Positions 2 to 6,413 of a stretch of 6,413 nucleotides of DNA are shown in pieces. Under the pieces are notes generated by a model. It did no database searches and was not told where the DNA came from. It saw only the letters and a program-made list of their open reading frames with translations. The position numbers and the translations under genes were made by a program. Source of the DNA: Xanthobacteraceae bacterium (GTDB lineage Bacteria > Pseudomonadota > Alphaproteobacteria > Rhizobiales > Xanthobacteraceae); assembly GCA_030043285.1 (NCBI GenBank), contig JASHXZ010000333.1:1-6413 (forward strand), in the 5' to 3' direction. The stretch's first letter is position 1; each line of letters begins with the position of its first letter.

Positions 2-289
2 CGGATTTTCAAGATCGCGGCGAAAACCCGATGTGCAAAGCGCGCTAACGAATTGCTGGTGCTGGTCGCAACGGTGATCGTTGCATTGGAAGTATTGACG
101 CGCGATTACAGCGGCTGGGGCAAGCGATTTCCGGCCGCAAAGCGCGAAGCCGAAGCGATGTTGGTCGATTTCCGGCAGCGATCCCGCAATTGGTTTATGG
201 ATCGATATCTCTATCCCTCCCTCAGTTTGAATCGCGATCTTAGCGGCATTCTCAGTCGCGCCGCCGAAGAGACAGTTGTTAGTTTCTGA
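2..289 (+). CDS. 3' end of an unidentified protein gene (5' end outside window)
   Basis: The reading frame is open from base 2 to the TGA at 287-289, so the gene may begin before the window. The visible part is about 95 residues. It has one hydrophobic stretch (ELLVLVATVIVALEVL, coded about 50-97) followed by a basic and aromatic tail (Trp, Tyr and Arg rich) that looks cytoplasmic or membrane-associated. Codon choice is GC-biased like the other genes. A TTG at 53 could start a 78-residue protein, but no clear ribosome binding site precedes it, and the frame stays open upstream. I do not recognise the family. The stop lies 8 bases before the ATG of the tiny lipoprotein gene, so the two may be co-transcribed and translationally coupled. 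Confidence 0.5.
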   Translation, partial: RIFKIAAKTRCAKRANELLVLVATVIVALEVLTRDYSGWGKRFPAAKREAEAMLVDFRQRSRNWFMDRYLYPSLSLNRDLSGILSRAAEETVVSF

Positions 290-297
290 TCGGCGCC

Positions 298-429
298 ATG
301 AGACCTCTGCTATCGCTCGGTGTTGTGCTGTTTGGCGCGATTGTGTTGTCCGCCTGTTCGGATACGCGCACGCACCAATCGTGCGATTGGGTTGGCCCAG
401 GCGGCAGAGCCGTATACCGCTGCCAGTGA
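298..429 (+). CDS. Tiny lipoprotein with one Cys-bounded CDWVGPGGRAVYRC motif
   Basis: This encodes 43 residues: MRPLL, a hydrophobic core, then a lipobox LSAC with the lipidation cysteine at residue 20. The mature peptide would be only 24 residues, and most of it is the motif C29-D-W-V-G-P-G-G-R-A-V-Y-R-C42 (bases 382-423), ending CQ. By family rules for bacterial lipoproteins it should be exported by Sec, lipidated and anchored in an envelope membrane; Ser follows the lipidated Cys. Cys29 and Cys42 could form a disulphide hairpin. The same motif recurs twice in the secreted protein at 879-1169, and a decayed copy of this lipoprotein lies at 3384-3497. No strong ribosome binding site is visible; the start is 8 bases after the preceding stop, so coupled translation is likely. 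It is shorter than most annotation cut-offs. Function unknown. Confidence 0.72.
   Translation: MRPLLSLGVVLFGAIVLSACSDTRTHQSCDWVGPGGRAVYRCQ
382..423 (+). repeat. CDW-GPGGRA motif, copy A
   Basis: This codes CDWVGPGGRAVYRC. Its protein sequence is identical to copy B1 (1014-1055), yet 8 of 42 bases differ, all silently. It shares the AGA arginine and CCA proline codons with copy C (3450-3491), from which it differs at 6 of 42 bases. A and C are therefore the closest pair. Confidence 0.8.
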
Positions 430-642
430 CAACTGCTGGACGAGCACGAAAGCCCTGTTCAGGTTGCGAGCGCCCAACCGCGCACACGACGAACCGAATC
501 TGGTAGTCGTTACCAAACAACGAACGGCAATAATCACGTTACGCGATCGGTCGGATATTAAAATGCTATTTGACGCGGCGCGGCGTAACAATAGATTCGA
601 ATTGCTGGTGATTGATGAGTGTCATGTTGGCGTTCATCGGGA

Positions 643-669
643 GGGGTCGGATCTGGCAAGTCCGACCCT
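643..669 (+). terminator. Stem-loop, possible transcription terminator or RNA end
   Basis: GGGTCGGA (644-651) pairs perfectly with TCCGACCC (661-668) around a 9-base loop, and a G-T pair (643/669) extends it to 9 bp. No T run follows, so it is not a textbook intrinsic terminator. It could end transcription of the lipoprotein unit with help, protect an RNA 3' end, or be an operator. The structure is certain; the role is inferred. Confidence 0.4.
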
Positions 670-810
670 AACCGTCAGATAGCGCCTGTCAGTATTAGGA
701 CGTTTATTGGTGGTTATCTGATTGACTTCGATCGAAAACGGAGCGCTGCCGGATTATAAAGTTTCGATTTTTTTATCGTCGTCTTTATCATTATTGGTCA
801 AAAAGTCTCC

Positions 811-829
811 GGTTTCAATTGGCGAAACC
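811..829. promoter_or_regulatory. Inverted repeat upstream of the secreted-protein gene
   Basis: GGTTTC (811-816) and GAAACC (824-829) form a perfect 6-base inverted repeat with a 7-base centre, 49 bases before the ATG at 879, inside the AT-rich leader. The position suits a regulator binding site for the secreted protein/kinase unit. A short arm like this can also arise by chance. Confidence 0.25.
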
Positions 830-878
830 CGATTTTAATATTCGCCAGCGCGGGCTTTGATCAAATGAGGTAACAGAA

Positions 879-1169
879 ATGAACCGTCTGATATTTTTTA
901 TTGCTGCGATGGAATGCGCCGTTGCCGTTGCGGCACCGACGTTTGCGGCGAGCCACGGGCACAAACACCCGCGCGTTCGAGTGAAGGCTGTCGTCGCTGT
1001 GCCCCATAGGCTCTGCGATTGGGTCGGGCCCGGCGGCCGCGCGGTTTATCGCTGCACCTTGGTCGATCCACCCCAACAACGGGCGGCCGATCCACCTGCC
1101 GACAGAACGCCGCATCGGGTCTGCGACTGGGTCGGACCCGGAGGCCGCGCCTTATATCTTTGCCGCTGA
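879..1169 (+). CDS. Secreted protein with two CDWVGPGGRA repeats
   Basis: This encodes 96 residues. Residues 1 to about 24 look like a Sec signal peptide (MNRLIFFIAA, then an Ala/Val core, then PTFAA), with cleavage probably near residues 22-24. The mature protein starts with a His-rich stretch (SHGHKHP) that could bind metal. Two motif copies follow: C46-DWVGPGGRAVYR-C59 and C82-DWVGPGGRALYL-C95, separated by a Pro/Gln/Asp-rich linker of about 22 residues; the protein ends one residue after the second Cys. Each Cys pair has 12 residues between, which would suit two disulphide loops. The start is supported by TGAGG at 866-870, 8 bases upstream. The TGA is only 2 bases before the ATG of the sensor kinase, so the two genes should be translated together. 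It shares its motif with the tiny lipoprotein at 298-429. Function unknown; an envelope partner of the kinase is my inference. Confidence 0.8.
   Translation: MNRLIFFIAAMECAVAVAAPTFAASHGHKHPRVRVKAVVAVPHRLCDWVGPGGRAVYRCTLVDPPQQRAADPPADRTPHRVCDWVGPGGRALYLCR
1014..1055 (+). repeat. CDW-GPGGRA motif, copy B1
   Basis: This codes CDWVGPGGRAVYRC, the first of two copies within the 879-1169 gene. It differs from copy B2 at 8 of 42 bases. Four of the six changed codons are silent; the other two change Val to Leu and Arg to Leu near the C-terminal end of the motif. Confidence 0.8.
1122..1163 (+). repeat. CDW-GPGGRA motif, copy B2
   Basis: This codes CDWVGPGGRALYLC, the second copy in the same gene, one codon before the stop. 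Both cysteines and the whole DWVGPGGRA core are kept. Confidence 0.8.
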
Positions 1170-1171
1170 GA

Positions 1172-2782
1172 ATGGCGGTAATCGCGAACTTCATCAGCGG
1201 ACTCGCCAACGGCGTTCGCCGCTTACTGACCGTTCGCGGTTTGGCTGCACCATTTACCGCATCGAGCCCGCGCGGCAGCGATGATGCGGCGCGCCGGAGC
1301 GTTTCCGTTTGGCGAAATTATCTGTGGCCGGCCTTGGCAACGCTGCTGCTGACGGCGTTGGCGACGGCTATCCTGTTTAGCCTCAGTGGCGTGCTTGCCT
1401 CGATTAATCTCGTTTCCGTCGTTTATCTGCTTCCGGTTTTGATAGCCGCGCTGCGCTGGGGCATATGGGCAGCGTTGCTCGCGGCGATTGCCGGTGCGTT
1501 GGCGGCCGATTTTTTCTTTTACCCGCCGATTTACAGCTTCCGCATCGATGACCCGCAAAATGTCGCCGACCTCATCGTCTTCCTCATCGTCGCGGTGGTG
1601 AGCGGAGAGATGGCGGCACGGTTGCGCCGGCGGGAGCAGAATATCCGCGAACTATACGCGTTCTCGGAACGGCTGGCGCAGTGCTTCAACAAATCCGACT
1701 TGATCCGGGCAGTGCAGGATTATCTGTCGCAAACTCTGGGCCGGCCGACGGCTTTCGTCGAGGCAGATGTGGCTCAGAGCGAAGAGCTCAATGAGAACTC
1801 CGTGCCAATGACGATTTGGCAGGCCGCGACGGCTGCCACTCCGCGTGACGATGTCACGCCGTGCACGCTATTTGACCGCGCAACAAGGCATTTCTGGCTG
1901 GCGCGTCGAATGTTGGTGGGTGCGATCGTTTACGTCGCGTTCGTCGATCTCGGCCTCAGCACTACCGCGAGCGGGAACAAGCTTAATCGGCGCATCGAGC
2001 GCGCAATCGCGGAAGCCGCTGAGAACTTCGCGCGCCTGGATCTGGCCAAGGCGATCGAGGACGCCAGACTGCAGGGCCAGGAGGCAACGCTGAAGAACGC
2101 CATCGTCGCCACGATGTCGCACGATCTGCGCACGCCGTTGGCGTCGATCCTGGGAGCAGCCAGCGTACTCGATCAGGTCCCGGCGATCGCTGCCGATGCT
2201 CGGGCGCGCTCGCTGGTGAGTACGATGCAAGCGGAGGCCGCGCGGCTCGACGGCGACATTCAAAATCTGCTCGAAGCAGCACAGATCGCCGCCGGTGTCG
2301 AACGTCGCATACCGGAACTCGTCGATCCCGTCGACATAATCCACGAAGCAATCAGCCGAAGAAAAAATCAGCTCGCGGGTCATCGGTTGGAGGTTTCCAT
2401 CGTGCCCAATCTGCCGCTGATCGAGGTCCAGCCCCAACTCGTGGAGAATGCGTTGGCCCAGTTGCTCGACAATGCGGCAAAATATTCGCCGACCGGATCG
2501 AGGATTGAGATCAACGGCTCTGTCGATGGAAATTACATCGTCTTGTCGGTGACGGATCAAGGGGCTGGTCTTACGGCACCCGAATCGCACCGTGTCGGGC
2601 AACGCTCGTTTCGCGGCGCACGGCATGCCGGCACGATTAGCGGATCGGGCTTAGGCTTATGGATCGCCAGTACCTTCGTTGCCGCCAACGGCGGCAAGCT
2701 CGAAGCTGAGAGCGCAGGCGCAAATCGCGGAACGACGATCCGCATTCGCTTCCCCACACGCTCGGCCAATGGTCAAGGCTAA
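1172..2782 (+). CDS. DUF4118 (KdpD C-terminal-like) sensor histidine kinase
   Basis: A membrane sensor kinase of 536 residues that should autophosphorylate on His and pass the phosphate to a response regulator. A basic N-terminus of about 50 residues precedes four hydrophobic segments at roughly 51-72, 77-95, 96-115 and 131-146, the DUF4118 arrangement of KdpD. A linker of about 165-290 occupies the place of KdpD's GAF domain but is poorly recognisable. The kinase core follows: H-box MSHDLRTPL with His317, N-box LLDNAAKYSP with Asn434, G1 DQGAG at 462-466, G2 GSGLGL at 491-496. KdpD's N-terminal sensor-kinase and USP domains are absent, so the name kdpD is not justified. I chose ATG 1172 because it follows the upstream stop by 2 bases; an in-frame ATG at 1019 would overlap most of the upstream gene with a low-complexity Arg-rich extension. 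No response regulator gene is in the window. The signal is unknown. Confidence 0.9.
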   Translation: MAVIANFISGLANGVRRLLTVRGLAAPFTASSPRGSDDAARRSVSVWRNYLWPALATLLLTALATAILFSLSGVLASINLVSVVYLLPVLIAALRWGIWAALLAAIAGALAADFFFYPPIYSFRIDDPQNVADLIVFLIVAVVSGEMAARLRRREQNIRELYAFSERLAQCFNKSDLIRAVQDYLSQTLGRPTAFVEADVAQSEELNENSVPMTIWQAATAATPRDDVTPCTLFDRATRHFWLARRMLVGAIVYVAFVDLGLSTTASGNKLNRRIERAIAEAAENFARLDLAKAIEDARLQGQEATLKNAIVATMSHDLRTPLASILGAASVLDQVPAIAADARARSLVSTMQAEAARLDGDIQNLLEAAQIAAGVERRIPELVDPVDIIHEAISRRKNQLAGHRLEVSIVPNLPLIEVQPQLVENALAQLLDNAAKYSPTGSRIEINGSVDGNYIVLSVTDQGAGLTAPESHRVGQRSFRGARHAGTISGSGLGLWIASTFVAANGGKLEAESAGANRGTTIRIRFPTRSANGQG

Positions 2783-2813
2783 AAAGGCAGGTCTCGAGTG
2801 AAACGCGACGCGT

Positions 2814-3170
2814 TCACCAAGTGCCGACGATGCACACGATCAAAAACGGCGTTCCGGCGAGGCCGAGATAGAGCCACGTTCGGTAAGCGTGGGCGTCGCG
2901 CGGCAGGACAAACAATTGGACGGCGGTCCAGGCGAATGCGGCCAAGCCGAGACTCAGCCGAATAAGATCCGACGGAGCATCGTAAACCGTCCAGAAGCTC
3001 TGGGTCTGGGGCATGCTCGCATGGCCAACGAGGATCAGCAGCGTGACAATAAAACTCGTTCGCAGAACCATGCTCGCGATCCACAGAGATTTTGGTATCG
3101 CTAATCTGGCTTGTTCCGGCCGAGCTTCGCCAGGCTCCGATTGAGTCGAGGCACCAAGCGCCCGCAACAT
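2814..3170 (-). CDS. Small three-helix membrane protein, function unknown
   Basis: This encodes 118 residues. A polar N-terminus of about 27 residues precedes three hydrophobic segments at about 29-49 (IASMVLRTSFIVTLLILVG), 69-89 and 97-117, and the protein ends VGTW right after the last helix. The loop between helices 1 and 2 is polar with aromatic residues (TQSFWTVYDAPSD); the second loop is LPRDAHAYRTW. It should sit in the inner membrane. The start is supported by TGGAGGGA (3183-3176 on this strand) 5 bases before the ATG. An internal Met34 is possible but has no such support. The gene converges on the kinase gene with 31 bases between stops, and I see no hairpin terminator there. The arrangement looks like that of conserved hypothetical proteins of Bradyrhizobium relatives, but I cannot name a family. 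Confidence 0.75.
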   Translation of the reverse strand: MLRALGASTQSEPGEARPEQARLAIPKSLWIASMVLRTSFIVTLLILVGHASMPQTQSFWTVYDAPSDLIRLSLGLAAFAWTAVQLFVLPRDAHAYRTWLYLGLAGTPFLIVCIVGTW

Positions 3171-3175
3171 GGCGG

Positions 3176-3183
3176 TCCCTCCA
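3176..3183 (-). promoter_or_regulatory. Strong ribosome binding site of the small membrane protein
   Basis: On the minus strand this reads TGGAGGGA, 5 bases from the ATG at 3170-3168. It decides the start in favour of the 118-residue form over an internal Met. Confidence 0.7.
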
Positions 3184-3383
3184 AATCGAATTTTGGGCTC
3201 TTCCCAAGGCCCTTGCGTCTGAATATACGCTTTGGCCTGTAGAAATAAAGATTGAATATAAATATTAGGTGCAGTGCATATAAATCCGTGGTGGAGAGAG
3301 GACGATTTTTATAAATCTGCTGACGGCATCTGCATTTGCATAGCCAATTGCCTAATATCTCGGCATCATTTCTGTCAGCCTGA

Positions 3384-3497
3384 ATTCGCAGCGGAAACGG
3401 CCGTCGCGCGCTGGTGTCCGCTTGCACGGATACGCCCAGCAAGCCCTCGTGCGATTGGATCGGTCCAGGCGGCAGAGCCATATACCGGTGTCGCTGA
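3384..3497 (+). pseudogene. Decayed paralogue of the tiny lipoprotein
   Basis: The frame from 3384 to the TGA at 3495-3497 reads, at its end, LVSACTDTPSKPSCDW and then IGPGGRAIYRCR. This matches the intact lipoprotein at 298-429 from its lipobox onward (LSACSDT...SCDW, then VGPGGRAVYRCQ). DNA similarity starts near TGTCCGC, just before the lipidation Cys codon (3423-3425), and runs to the stop. Upstream, no usable signal peptide exists: the frame is closed by TGA at 3381-3383, there is no ATG, and the residues where the hydrophobic core should be are SGNGRR. It therefore looks like a copy that lost its 5' part by deletion or rearrangement. A GTG at 3414 could in principle start a cytoplasmic peptide, which I think unlikely. 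A frameshifted but functional gene, or a sequence error, is the alternative. Confidence 0.6.
3450..3491 (+). repeat. CDW-GPGGRA motif, copy C
   Basis: This codes CDWIGPGGRAIYRC. All core residues are kept; the two changes relative to copy A are conservative (Val to Ile, twice). The motif itself is undamaged although the rest of the gene is degraded. Confidence 0.75.
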
Positions 3498-3536: not shown

Positions 3537-4898
3537 CTATCGCTGCAATGCCAGATCCGCCGCACCGTTGAGCCGGTCGAAGATCATCAGCTTCTCGAAC
3601 GACGAGGATTTTCTGGCCGGCGCGTAGTCGTCGCCGAGGCAGTCGGCGAATTTGGCCCACAGCTCTTCGCGCGAGAGCGGGGACTGGTGGCTGCCCTTGG
3701 CGTATTCGACCGGATCGCTCTTGAGCGTTGCGCCCGATGTGGTGGTGATTTCCACCGCGTCGGCCGGGGCGAAGGCGGAGCCGGGCATGGTTGCGTCCGT
3801 GGTCGTGAAAAGGACGCGTGGGAAGATCGCCTGCACGTCCGCGCGGCGCACGAACGCGTCGGTCAATTCGGCGAGCCCGACTTTGCGCGCAACCAGCGCC
3901 GCCGCCATCGCGAACTGCATGGAAAATTTCGCTTCGAGCCCGGTCTGCGGCCGCGCGTTGCGTAGCATGACGAGTTGCGTCTTGCCGGTCGAGACGTGAA
4001 TATGTTCGACTTTGTCGGCCGACAGATCGTAGCGTTCCACCAGGCCGAGCGCCGCGTCGATCGAGCGATGCGTCGCATAGCAGATCGGATAGCGTTTGAT
4101 GTTGAGGCCTTCGCCGACGATATGCCACTCCTTGCGCGCCGCATCGAACGGCCGGTCGCGCTCGACCTTGCCCTCCGGCGACAGCGCCGTGAGCAGCCCG
4201 GAGGGATGCTCCAGCGCATCCAGCGAAGCGGTCAGCCCGGCTTGCGCCAGGCGTGCCGCGATCAGCCCGGATTGCGCGGCGCGGCCGACCTGGAATGATT
4301 TGGTCATCGTTCCGAAATTGGCGACCAGGCCGGACGCCATCGACGCCGCAATCGCCATCGCGGTTGCGGCGCCGCGCTCATCGAGGCCCCGCAGCTTGGC
4401 GCATGCTGCGGCAGCCGCAACGGTGCCGAGCACGGCGCTCGGGTGCCAGCCCTTGCGATGCAGCGGCGTCGGCTCGCGCGCCAACAGCTCCGCCCAGACT
4501 TCGAAGCCGGCGACGTAGGCGGTGAGCATCTCCGCGCCACTCGAGGCGCTGGCCTCACCTTGGGCCAGGATCGCCGGCACCAGCGCCGCGCTCGGGTGGC
4601 CGTCGAGACTGACGTCGTCATAGTCGAGCACATGGGCGGCAACGCCGTTGACCAAGACGGCGCTTTCGACGCTGCGCCGTTCGCCTGACGGAATAAGCGA
4701 TGCGGAGGCCGCACCGGCAGCCGCGCCGTTGCCAAGCTCACGGTCGACCAGCGCGATCTCCGGATCGCGCGCGCCCGCGACCAGCACGCCGAAACAATCG
4801 GCGATGCCGGTGCGCGCGATGGCGCTGCCCTCCGCTGGAATCTGCCGCAAGGAAAGATCGGCGACGAAACGGCCGAGCTGCAAGGTCAGCGAACTCAT
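3537..4898 (-). CDS. MmgE/PrpD family protein
   Basis: A cytoplasmic protein of 453 residues, normal for the family of 2-methylcitrate dehydratase, cis-aconitate decarboxylase and related lyases/isomerases. Family landmarks visible in order: AHVLDYDD (88-95), GHPSA (100-104), GWHPSAVLG (150-158), KSFQVGRAAQSG (200-211), KRYPICYATHRSID (268-281) and EAKFSMQFA (322-330). The first 260 residues form the Ala-rich helical domain, and the rest the smaller lid domain. The start at 4898 is supported by CGGAGA on the minus strand, 5 bases upstream. No methylcitrate synthase, PrpB or propionyl-CoA gene is next to it, so the substrate cannot be told; many family members act on other hydroxy-acids, and prpD would be over-precise. 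The gene is divergent from the ferritin-like gene, with 197 bases between starts. Confidence 0.92.
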   Translation of the reverse strand: MSSLTLQLGRFVADLSLRQIPAEGSAIARTGIADCFGVLVAGARDPEIALVDRELGNGAAAGAASASLIPSGERRSVESAVLVNGVAAHVLDYDDVSLDGHPSAALVPAILAQGEASASSGAEMLTAYVAGFEVWAELLAREPTPLHRKGWHPSAVLGTVAAAAACAKLRGLDERGAATAMAIAASMASGLVANFGTMTKSFQVGRAAQSGLIAARLAQAGLTASLDALEHPSGLLTALSPEGKVERDRPFDAARKEWHIVGEGLNIKRYPICYATHRSIDAALGLVERYDLSADKVEHIHVSTGKTQLVMLRNARPQTGLEAKFSMQFAMAAALVARKVGLAELTDAFVRRADVQAIFPRVLFTTTDATMPGSAFAPADAVEITTTSGATLKSDPVEYAKGSHQSPLSREELWAKFADCLGDDYAPARKSSSFEKLMIFDRLNGAADLALQR

Positions 4899-5095: not shown

Positions 5096-5599
5096 ATGGG
5101 ACTGTTCTCCAAAGACATAAAGAACATGGACGACCTGTTCGTGCACACCTTGCGCGACATCTACTATGCCGAAAAACAGATCGTGAAAGCGCTGCCGGAC
5201 ATGATCGAGAAATCGACCGATCCGCAGCTCAAGCAGGGTTTCCAGAACCATTTGCGCGAGACTGAAAATCACGTGAAGCGGCTCGAACAGATCTTTCAAA
5301 TGGCCGGCAAGAAGCCGCAGGGCGTGGATTGCCCGGCGATCGACGGCATCATCGAAGAGGCGCAAGACGTCGCCGGCGAGGTGGAACAGAAGCCGGTTCT
5401 TGATGCCGCCCTCATCGCCGCCGCCCAAGCGGTGGAGCACTACGAGATCACGCGTTACGGGACCCTGATCTCCTGGGCTAACCAGCTCGGCCGCAGGGAT
5501 TGCGTGACGCTGTTGCAGCAAACCCTTGACGAGGAGAAGGCGACCGACAAGAAGCTCACCGCGATGGCGGAATCCCAGGTCAACCGCAAGGCCGCCTGA
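5096..5599 (+). CDS. YciE/YciF-type ferritin-like protein (DUF892)
   Basis: This encodes 167 residues, the usual length for this family of four-helix-bundle, ferritin-like stress proteins found in the cytoplasm; a di-iron site and a role in oxidative, osmotic or other stress are proposed for the family. The N-terminal signature is MDDLFVHTLRDIYYAEKQI (11-29). Candidate metal ligands in the four helices are Glu26, Glu55/Glu57 with His59 (ETENH), Glu114/His115/Glu117 (EHYEITRYG) and Glu146/Glu147 (LDEEKATDKKL). The YGTL and ANQLG segments (121-132) are also typical. The start is fixed by AAGGA 6 bases upstream and by the MGLFSKDI start that precedes the family signature. It has its own EcfG-type promoter, so it is probably induced as part of the general stress response. 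The actual activity of such proteins is poorly established. Confidence 0.92.
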   Translation: MGLFSKDIKNMDDLFVHTLRDIYYAEKQIVKALPDMIEKSTDPQLKQGFQNHLRETENHVKRLEQIFQMAGKKPQGVDCPAIDGIIEEAQDVAGEVEQKPVLDAALIAAAQAVEHYEITRYGTLISWANQLGRRDCVTLLQQTLDEEKATDKKLTAMAESQVNRKAA

Positions 5600-5755: not shown

Positions 5756-5759
5756 CGTT
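5735..5759 (+). promoter_or_regulatory. EcfG-type general-stress promoter for the PAS sensor gene
   Basis: GGAAC (5735-5739), a 16-base spacer, then CGTT (5756-5759) fits the EcfG consensus exactly. It lies 43 bases before the ATG at 5803 and points towards it. The -35 box and spacer are embedded in a perfect inverted repeat (5730-5755). The sequence match is direct; use by EcfG is inferred. Confidence 0.72.
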
Positions 5760-5802
5760 GGCGTGGCCGGATGCGAGGCGACTGGAGGGGCGCGTAAGCA
5801 AA

Positions 5803-6413
5803 ATGAGTAGAATACGCTCGAATCTGGCCGAAGCCGCAGCTGCTGTCGGTGCGGATGCGCCTTGCCGCATGCCGGCGGTGCGCGCTCCCACGATCGCGCC
5901 GAGCCAGGTTCTCGATCAACTGCCGGCAGCCGTGTACATCACGGATGCCGCGGGGAGAATCACCTACTTCAACGAGGCTGCGGTATCGCTGTGGGGGTGC
6001 CGCCCGAAGCTCGACAGCGATCAGTGGTGCGGCTCCTGGCGACTCTATTGGCCGGACGGCAGGCCAATGCGGCACGACGAGTGCCCGATGGCAGTAGCGG
6101 TCAAGGAGCAGCGCACCCTGCGCGGCGGCGAGGCGATCACCGAGCGGCCGGACGGCACGCGCGTGCCGTTCATGGCGTTTCCGACGCCGCTCTACGATGC
6201 ATCCGGCGCCATGATCGGCGCAGTCAACATGCTGGTCGACACGAGCGACCGACAGCGCGGCGAGCGTGCGGCGCACCAGCTCGCCGCCATCGTGGAGTCG
6301 AGCGACGACGCCATCGTCAGCAAGGACCTCAATGGGATTATCGCCACCTGGAACAAGGCAGCCGAGCGACTGTTCGGCTACTTCGCCGAAGAAGTCATTG
6401 GCAAGCCGATCAC
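5803..6413 (+). CDS. Two-PAS sensor protein, N-terminal part; probably a sensor kinase (3' end outside window)
   Basis: 203 residues are visible, and the frame is open to the window end. A short Ala-rich N-terminus precedes a first PAS domain at about 36-148, with [22 protein letters not shown] at its start (36-57), GCRPKL, a WPDGRPM segment and [21 protein letters not shown] at its end. A short linker [12 protein letters not shown] (149-160) leads to a second PAS domain, [22 protein letters not shown] (163-184), then [17 protein letters not shown] at the cut. No signal peptide or membrane segment is seen, so it should be a cytoplasmic sensor. In rhizobial relatives this arrangement is usually followed by an HWE or HisKA kinase core, which lies beyond the window; a cyclase or response-regulator output cannot be excluded. 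GGAGG (5784-5788) is 14 bases before the ATG, rather far. The EcfG-type promoter upstream suggests it is itself under general-stress control. Confidence 0.85.

Follow-up and report, generated by a model that had tools for sequence, protein, structure and literature searches.

What does a cysteine-bounded loop of 14 residues do that occurs four times in 6,413 nucleotides of DNA from Xanthobacteraceae bacterium (the whole of the stretch analysed, hereafter the window), and what has it to do with the sensor histidine kinase, HK1, encoded between its copies? Translation of the window places the consensus CDW[VI]GPGGRA[VIL]Y[RL]C four times on the plus strand: copy A, at 382..423, and copy B1, at 1014..1055, are both translated as CDWVGPGGRAVYRC, copy B2 (1122..1163) reads CDWVGPGGRALYLC, and copy C (3450..3491) reads CDWIGPGGRAIYRC. 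A is carried by a 43-codon ORF, B1 and B2 together by one of 96 codons, and C by a truncated remnant; a six-frame scan of the window for C.W.G returned none beyond these four. Of the 42 bases, 8 distinguish A from B1, every one in a synonymous codon, and 6 distinguish A from C, of which three fall in replaced codons. The four copies, their positions and these base differences are as the initial annotation had given them, and its description of the three carriers as a lipoprotein, a two-copy signal-peptide protein and a decayed lipoprotein holds as well: the first ORF has a lipobox-like LSAC, the second a signal-peptide-like start, and the third looks like a truncated relative of the first (a 64% match). 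Recent DNA duplication or gene conversion was considered as the origin of such similar loops and rejected, the silent divergence among the window loops being 0.41-0.81.

The window opens inside a gene. By homology, orf95 (2..289, plus strand) is the C-terminal part, cut by the contig end, of an unnamed gene of the orf176 family that flanks the cassette of loop genes and HK1; over 94 residues it shares 57% identity with the ORF that precedes the lipoprotein gene of G003, and it is 53% identical to that ORF's relative in G012, these being the two other genomes of the genus in which loop genes were found. The lipoprotein gene itself, taken from the ORF list (298..429, plus strand; 43 codons, one loop), has a relative at the same place in G003 (L044:9003-9128, 49% identical), and none was found in G012; used alone as a protein query, it returned no relatives and no candidate sharing three words. 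Comparison with the same two genomes revealed a GC-rich inverted repeat at 643..668 (plus strand; GGGGTCGG...CCGACCC), with counterparts at L044 9296-9321 in G003 and L045 4892-4916 in G012, which occupies the gap between the lipoprotein and two-loop genes in two of the genomes, the window's and G003, and precedes the two-loop gene in G012. The RNA fold of a 49-base stretch has a z of -3.4, folding is stronger than in shuffled sequences for the copies of the window and G003, and the repeat may be a terminator or a dispersed repeat.

The two-loop gene, defined by its ORF and homologues (879..1169, plus strand; 96 codons), encodes a signal-peptide-like start, a short His-containing stretch and both loops, and its relatives are 42% identical in G012 and 41% in G003. 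Only two bases separate its stop from the start of HK1 that we chose in this analysis, the ATG at 1172; HK1 (1172..2782, plus strand) has DUF4118, HisKA and HATPase_c domains in Pfam. On the other side of the cassette is orf118 (2814..3170, minus strand), an unnamed gene of 118 codons known from its homologues, by eye a membrane protein, which adjoins the cassette in G003 and G012 and also a cassette-less site in a fourth genome, G011; since homologues occur in 16 of the 20 genomes of the genus, it is independent of the cassette. Copy C belongs to what homology identifies as a truncated remnant of a second lipoprotein gene (3411..3497, plus strand), of which 3411-3494 gives a 64% match to lipoprotein residues 16-43. 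Between the preceding stop and the lipobox Cys of the remnant the sole common start is a GTG three codons before that Cys, and no start that would leave a signal peptide was found in 3411..3497. The rest of the window holds ordinary neighbours recognized by Pfam: an MmgE/PrpD protein (3537-4898, minus strand), a DUF892 protein (5096-5599) and a PAS-domain protein (5758-6411).

As a query with an E limit of 10, the two-loop protein found 70 proteins, itself among them, and a profile built from 29 of these matched 162 protein clusters at E up to 0.001, scoring being confined to the 7,992 candidates with the most words in common. Among the 120 matches listed of the 162, every name given was "hypothetical protein" and none had a precomputed Pfam domain. 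The combined set from both searches comprised 130 proteins, chiefly from the sources jgi, lgn and ena and mostly from short contigs, which we read as metagenomes. A pattern for the 14-residue loop occurs in 128 of the 130, in 209 copies of which 58 are distinct, although the search was biased toward proteins with the loop in common. Because the pattern presets Cys1, Gly5 and Tyr12, and nearly residues 3 and 14, only the remaining positions are informative; among these, Asp2 is found in 180 of the 209 copies, Pro6 in 206, Gly7 in 208, Arg9 in 207 and Ala10 in 207, while residue 8 (Gly in 166, Ala in 41) and residue 4 (Val in 103, Ile in 97) vary. By the pattern, 81 proteins have two loops and 47 have one, with at least six of the latter (P0036, P0043, P0045, P0046, P0047 and P0107) carrying a divergent second loop that the pattern misses. 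One distant relative, P0068, has a CDWVGPGGRATRQC loop and a second, degenerate loop, CFFTGPGPRGSRVC; a search of 61 genomes with it, to an E limit of 0.01, led back to the loops of the window's genus, apart from two weak matches in G002 and G040.

No known name could be attached to these proteins. The best matches were DUF4106 in Pfam (E 0.16, two window loop proteins), NF040554 in NCBIfam (E 0.0015, 29 members and some others scanned, found in three of the 29), phrog_1455 in PHROGs (E 0.038) and, by sequence in the PDB, one at E 0.53, a saposin at E 0.5 being taken as chance; PADLOC gave no match for the two loop proteins tried. A Foldseek comparison of the predicted model against the PDB gave nothing better than E 7.4, a silence that says little since the pTM of the model is 0.28. 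A known domain or structure for the loop was thus rejected, there being nothing credible in these five resources, the PDB by sequence and by fold, and the initial annotation's statement that it knew of no named domain with this motif stands. Neither motif string occurs in the literature searched. A plasmid or phage origin was likewise rejected (tblastn of P0009 gave 1 and 2 records, all at E 0.9), as was a viral one, for which 2 stretches in viral contigs matched a pattern and none was confirmed. The existence of homologues, together with the matches in two further genomes of the genus, excludes a chance origin of the motif, and on the sequences compared here the loop proteins form a real, unnamed family under strong constraint.

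That constraint falls on the loop. In three genome pairs, pN over the loop codons of the two-loop gene is 0.09, 0.09 and 0.05 and pS is 0.69, 0.69 and 0.60; for the other codons of the same gene, pN is 0.42, 0.53 and 0.44 and pS, similar to that of the loop, is 0.60, 0.74 and 0.71. Comparing all nine loops, that of the remnant among them, gives 36 pairs with an overall pN/pS of 0.14, and such ratios are rough because silent sites are near saturation. The contrast between the loop and the rest inside the two-loop gene is nonetheless plain. With so strong an excess of silent over replacement changes, selection, as judged from these codons, is acting on the loop, and the initial annotation's proposal of selection at the level of the peptide is borne out.

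By a simple rule, 127 of the 128 proteins have a hydrophobic stretch followed by a cleavage-like site; the lipobox or cleavage-like site after the hydrophobic start of the loop proteins was assigned by simple rules only. AlphaFold2, run with 81 sequences, predicts a helix at residues 3-17 and hairpins at 43-62 and 82-95, with a pLDDT of 84-87 for the block and a whole-chain pTM of 0.28. Each predicted hairpin is tipped by a short helical turn, which in the first comprises residues 52-54, Gly-Gly-Arg. The loop is accordingly modelled as a beta-hairpin, with the two cysteines predicted to close it by a disulphide, which supports the initial annotation's idea of a small disulphide-hairpin family of the envelope.

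Within the genus, where every candidate was scored, the profile finds the family at E up to 0.001 in 3 of 20 genomes, and the search, run to E 10, matched seven others at E 0.05 or weaker; these genomes are 60-99% complete, so that not all absences are firm. With at most 12 to 17 candidates scored per genome, 3 of 391 genomes were positive at the level of the taxonomic family (3 of 296 in a second set), 1 of 397 in the order and 1 of 385 in the class, the single positive in each of the last two being the genome of the window itself. A broad distribution among named genomes was also considered and rejected: 30 pattern matches in genome contigs yielded none confirmed as a locus. A shorter exact pattern, blind to Ala-type loops, found no match in named-genome contigs, a collection that may omit records close to the window's genome. 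The loop family is narrow in the genomes searched, and its protein clusters far outnumber the genomes in which loop genes could be placed.

In all three genomes in which the gene context was read (the window's, G003 and G012), the two-loop gene lies directly before HK1 on one strand. HK1 has no response regulator gene beside it. Its orthologues within the genus are confined to the window genome, G003 and G012 (54% and 59% identity), the other kinases found in the genus being at most 45% identical to it, and the HK1-bearing genomes are exactly the 3 of 20 with loop genes. In G003 (L044), the order is regulator, HK2 and BBP2 porin on the minus strand, then orf176, lipoprotein, two-loop gene and HK1 on the plus strand, followed by orf116, orf289, an AcrB-type pump and HlyD, all on the minus strand. 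The block is almost unchanged in G012 (L045, reversed), apart from a missing lipoprotein and a second beta-barrel gene at a different position, the contig ending inside the pump gene, and the window reads orf95, lipoprotein, two-loop gene, HK1 and, on the minus strand, orf118. A different arrangement is found in G011 (L092), where HlyD, the AcrB-type pump, orf289 and orf118 are followed by orf176, BBP2, HK2 and the regulator; the matches to orf118 and orf176 lie 118 bases apart, and neither a loop gene nor HK1 is present. G011 is thus a matching site without the cassette, in which the loop gene and HK1 are absent together. An association of the loop genes with the porin, the pump or HK2 can be rejected because G011 keeps all of these; the loop genes go with HK1 and not with their porin and pump neighbours.

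In a kinase tree, the three HK1 proteins cluster (100/99) beside a kinase of G022 (97/93) and apart both from the HK2 of the four genomes and from the kinases of nine other members of the genus, the latter forming their own clade. Gain and loss of the cassette are not told apart, as the position of G011 relative to the others is not firm (81/61). There is no loop motif within ~1.5 kb of the related kinases of G022, G121 and G135, and the profile finds no loop anywhere in the G022 genome. By eye, an orf176-like ORF precedes the HK1-like kinase of G135 (L078, another genus), without loop genes, as if these had come in between the ORF and the kinase. A further member of the genus (L128, G001:C182) has orf176, BBP2, a match to a DUF4118-type kinase and a regulator together, the profile giving no loop gene anywhere in its genome. 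The kinase link of the loop genes is clear in the few genomes available.

How might such proteins act on HK1? The kinase has hydrophobic segments at 74-92, 98-116 and 131-149, a weaker one at 247-265 and another at ~50-72 by eye; Pfam shows no extracytoplasmic domain, and HK1 seems to have about four membrane helices joined by short loops. Sensor kinases that lack an outside domain are known to rely on sensing within the membrane or on accessory proteins, and HK1, seemingly of this kind, would need one or the other. Analogy with MgrB, and the fact that the loop genes travel with HK1, point to an accessory role. We therefore favour, tentatively and at somewhat less than an even chance, a reading in which the loop would be the contact surface through which exported small envelope proteins regulate HK1, encoded directly after the two-loop gene. 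A lipid-anchored one-loop form and a soluble two-loop form, both predicted to be exported, would touch the membrane part of HK1 and report to it the state of the envelope, which could mean how oxidising it is or whether a ligand or metal is bound close to the His-containing stretch. HK1 would then pass phosphate to a response regulator whose gene lies elsewhere, for which the OmpR-type regulator paired with HK2 nearby may be a candidate. As an alternative to regulation, the loop genes may only be carried along with the kinase.

One position varies in step between the loops of a two-loop protein. Residue 8, Gly or Ala, is the same in both loops of 78 of the 81 two-loop proteins, against a mean of 49.3 and a maximum of 61 in 5,000 shuffles. 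Positions 2, 4, 11 and 13 agree 64, 45, 35 and 39 times (shuffle means 62, 38.0, 32 and 38), so that position 4 is somewhat above its mean and the others are near theirs. The genomic loops are uniform as well, all four in the window having Gly, all three in G003 Ala and both in G012 Ala, and with silent sites diverged this uniformity is not due to recent gene conversion. On a tree of 83 proteins, made with residues 4 and 8 masked, residue 8 undergoes 8 state changes per copy, and the starred branches force at least 4 label changes; they contain three independent pairs, which change in the same direction in 2.9 on average and in opposite directions never (median p 0.25), a number of pairs with which the sign test is unable to reach significance. 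Positions 4 and 11 show no comparable tie between the loops on this tree. Although the agreement may reflect few events, its presence at residue 8, with little at the other variable positions, is suggestive of one partner shared by both loops of a protein. An improbable extension would make this a form of Gram-negative loop-and-kinase signalling, in which each genome would use one residue-8 dialect, Gly or Ala, on all its loops and on lipid-anchored and soluble carriers alike; both loops would switch together because HK1 is the single reader, and the carriers would be displayed ligands or precursors of disulphide-looped peptide signals.

A shared partner need not be the kinase. The loops could instead bind an envelope component such as an outer-membrane porin, lipopolysaccharide, peptidoglycan or the neighbouring efflux pump, with the kinase a neighbour or the gene's controller and not the target: a BBP2 porin, another beta-barrel protein and an AcrB-type pump are encoded within ~10 kb in G003 and G012, one loop is common to lipid-anchored and soluble forms, and a common partner of that kind would also explain the agreement at residue 8. 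We consider this unlikely, if still a serious contender, in view of G011, which retains BBP2, the pump and the flanks without the loop gene and HK1.

Quite improbable is a peptide signal, in which cleavage of the two-loop protein would release near-identical disulphide-looped peptides that have HK1 as their receptor. Tandem loops joined by fast-evolving linkers of 15-55 residues would suit a precursor, the consensus has an Arg two positions ahead of each loop at which cleavage could occur, the Gly and Ala variants resemble specificity types, and the adjoining kinase lacks an extracytoplasmic domain, as AgrC does according to PMC8534201. No protease or peptide-modifying gene was recognized, however, among the chosen ORFs (nine in L044 of G003 and ten in L045 of G012), where the only export-like genes are those of the HlyD/AcrB-type pump, and a lipid-anchored form would not diffuse. 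Very doubtful in turn is a metal or redox buffer, in which the His-containing stretch and the cysteine pair would hold metal or carry electrons in the periplasm, with the pump and the kinase taking part in metal homeostasis. In the 24 residues that lead up to the first loop, two-loop proteins do average 3.1 His, and genes for a HlyD_D23/CusB-type protein and an AcrB-type pump are nearby in G003, but proteins counted as one-loop average 1.7 His there, the window lipoprotein has one, and the conserved Asp, Trp, Arg and Tyr are in our judgement unlike a metal site. Most improbable of all is a toxin peptide, antibacterial or acting by contact, that is paired with a kinase for immunity or sensing: the proteins are very small, predicted to be exported, cysteine-paired and present in several copies, but no immunity gene was recognized among the adjoining ORFs scanned, PADLOC matched neither of the two loop proteins tried, and the close similarity of the loops from protein to protein is not what diversifying toxins show.

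Very small proteins such as these readily escape annotation, and here a loop far more constrained than the rest of its proteins recurs in more than 100 clusters without a functional name. If the loop does regulate the kinase, it would represent a further small protein with a cysteine pair, unrelated by sequence to those known, that controls a two-component system, and the switch between Gly and Ala would offer a natural experiment for mapping the contact. Such a role, if true, would also show which input is sensed by a DUF4118 kinase that has no outside domain.

Several known systems bear comparison with this arrangement. The resemblance to NF040554, the model of an HHHH-motif protein, is weak and limited to 3 of 29 members (best E 0.0015), and our guess is that it reflects the His-containing stretch, the model name not describing a cysteine loop. 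HK1 shares DUF4118, HisKA and HATPase_c with KdpD, its best NCBIfam match, but scores 186 bits against a cut-off of 1123, covers only model positions 388-883 of 895, the C-terminal half, is 536 residues long and has no adjoining regulator gene. The peptide of AgrC is closed by a thiolactone, whereas closure by a disulphide is predicted for the loop, and no peptide-processing gene was recognized among the ORFs scanned beside the loop genes. The likeness lies in the pairing of a small looped peptide with a kinase that has no extracytoplasmic domain, AgrC being described in PMC8534201 as binding a macrocyclic peptide in its membrane part.

No match to the MgrB model was found among the loop proteins scanned with Pfam and NCBIfam. 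MgrB has a membrane helix, whereas the loop proteins seem, by simple rules, to have a lipobox or a cleavable signal, and they carry up to two loops. Yet MgrB of E. coli and Salmonella is likewise a very small envelope protein with two conserved extracytoplasmic cysteines, and the loop proteins carry two cysteines with 12 residues between them at a site predicted to lie outside the cytoplasm. PMC8534201 gives MgrB 47 residues and two redox-responsive periplasmic cysteines and has it repress the sensor kinase PhoQ; MgrB and DsbA are also treated in PMC11825808. By analogy, and with no relationship by descent implied, the loop proteins would most likely work on HK1 as MgrB does on PhoQ.
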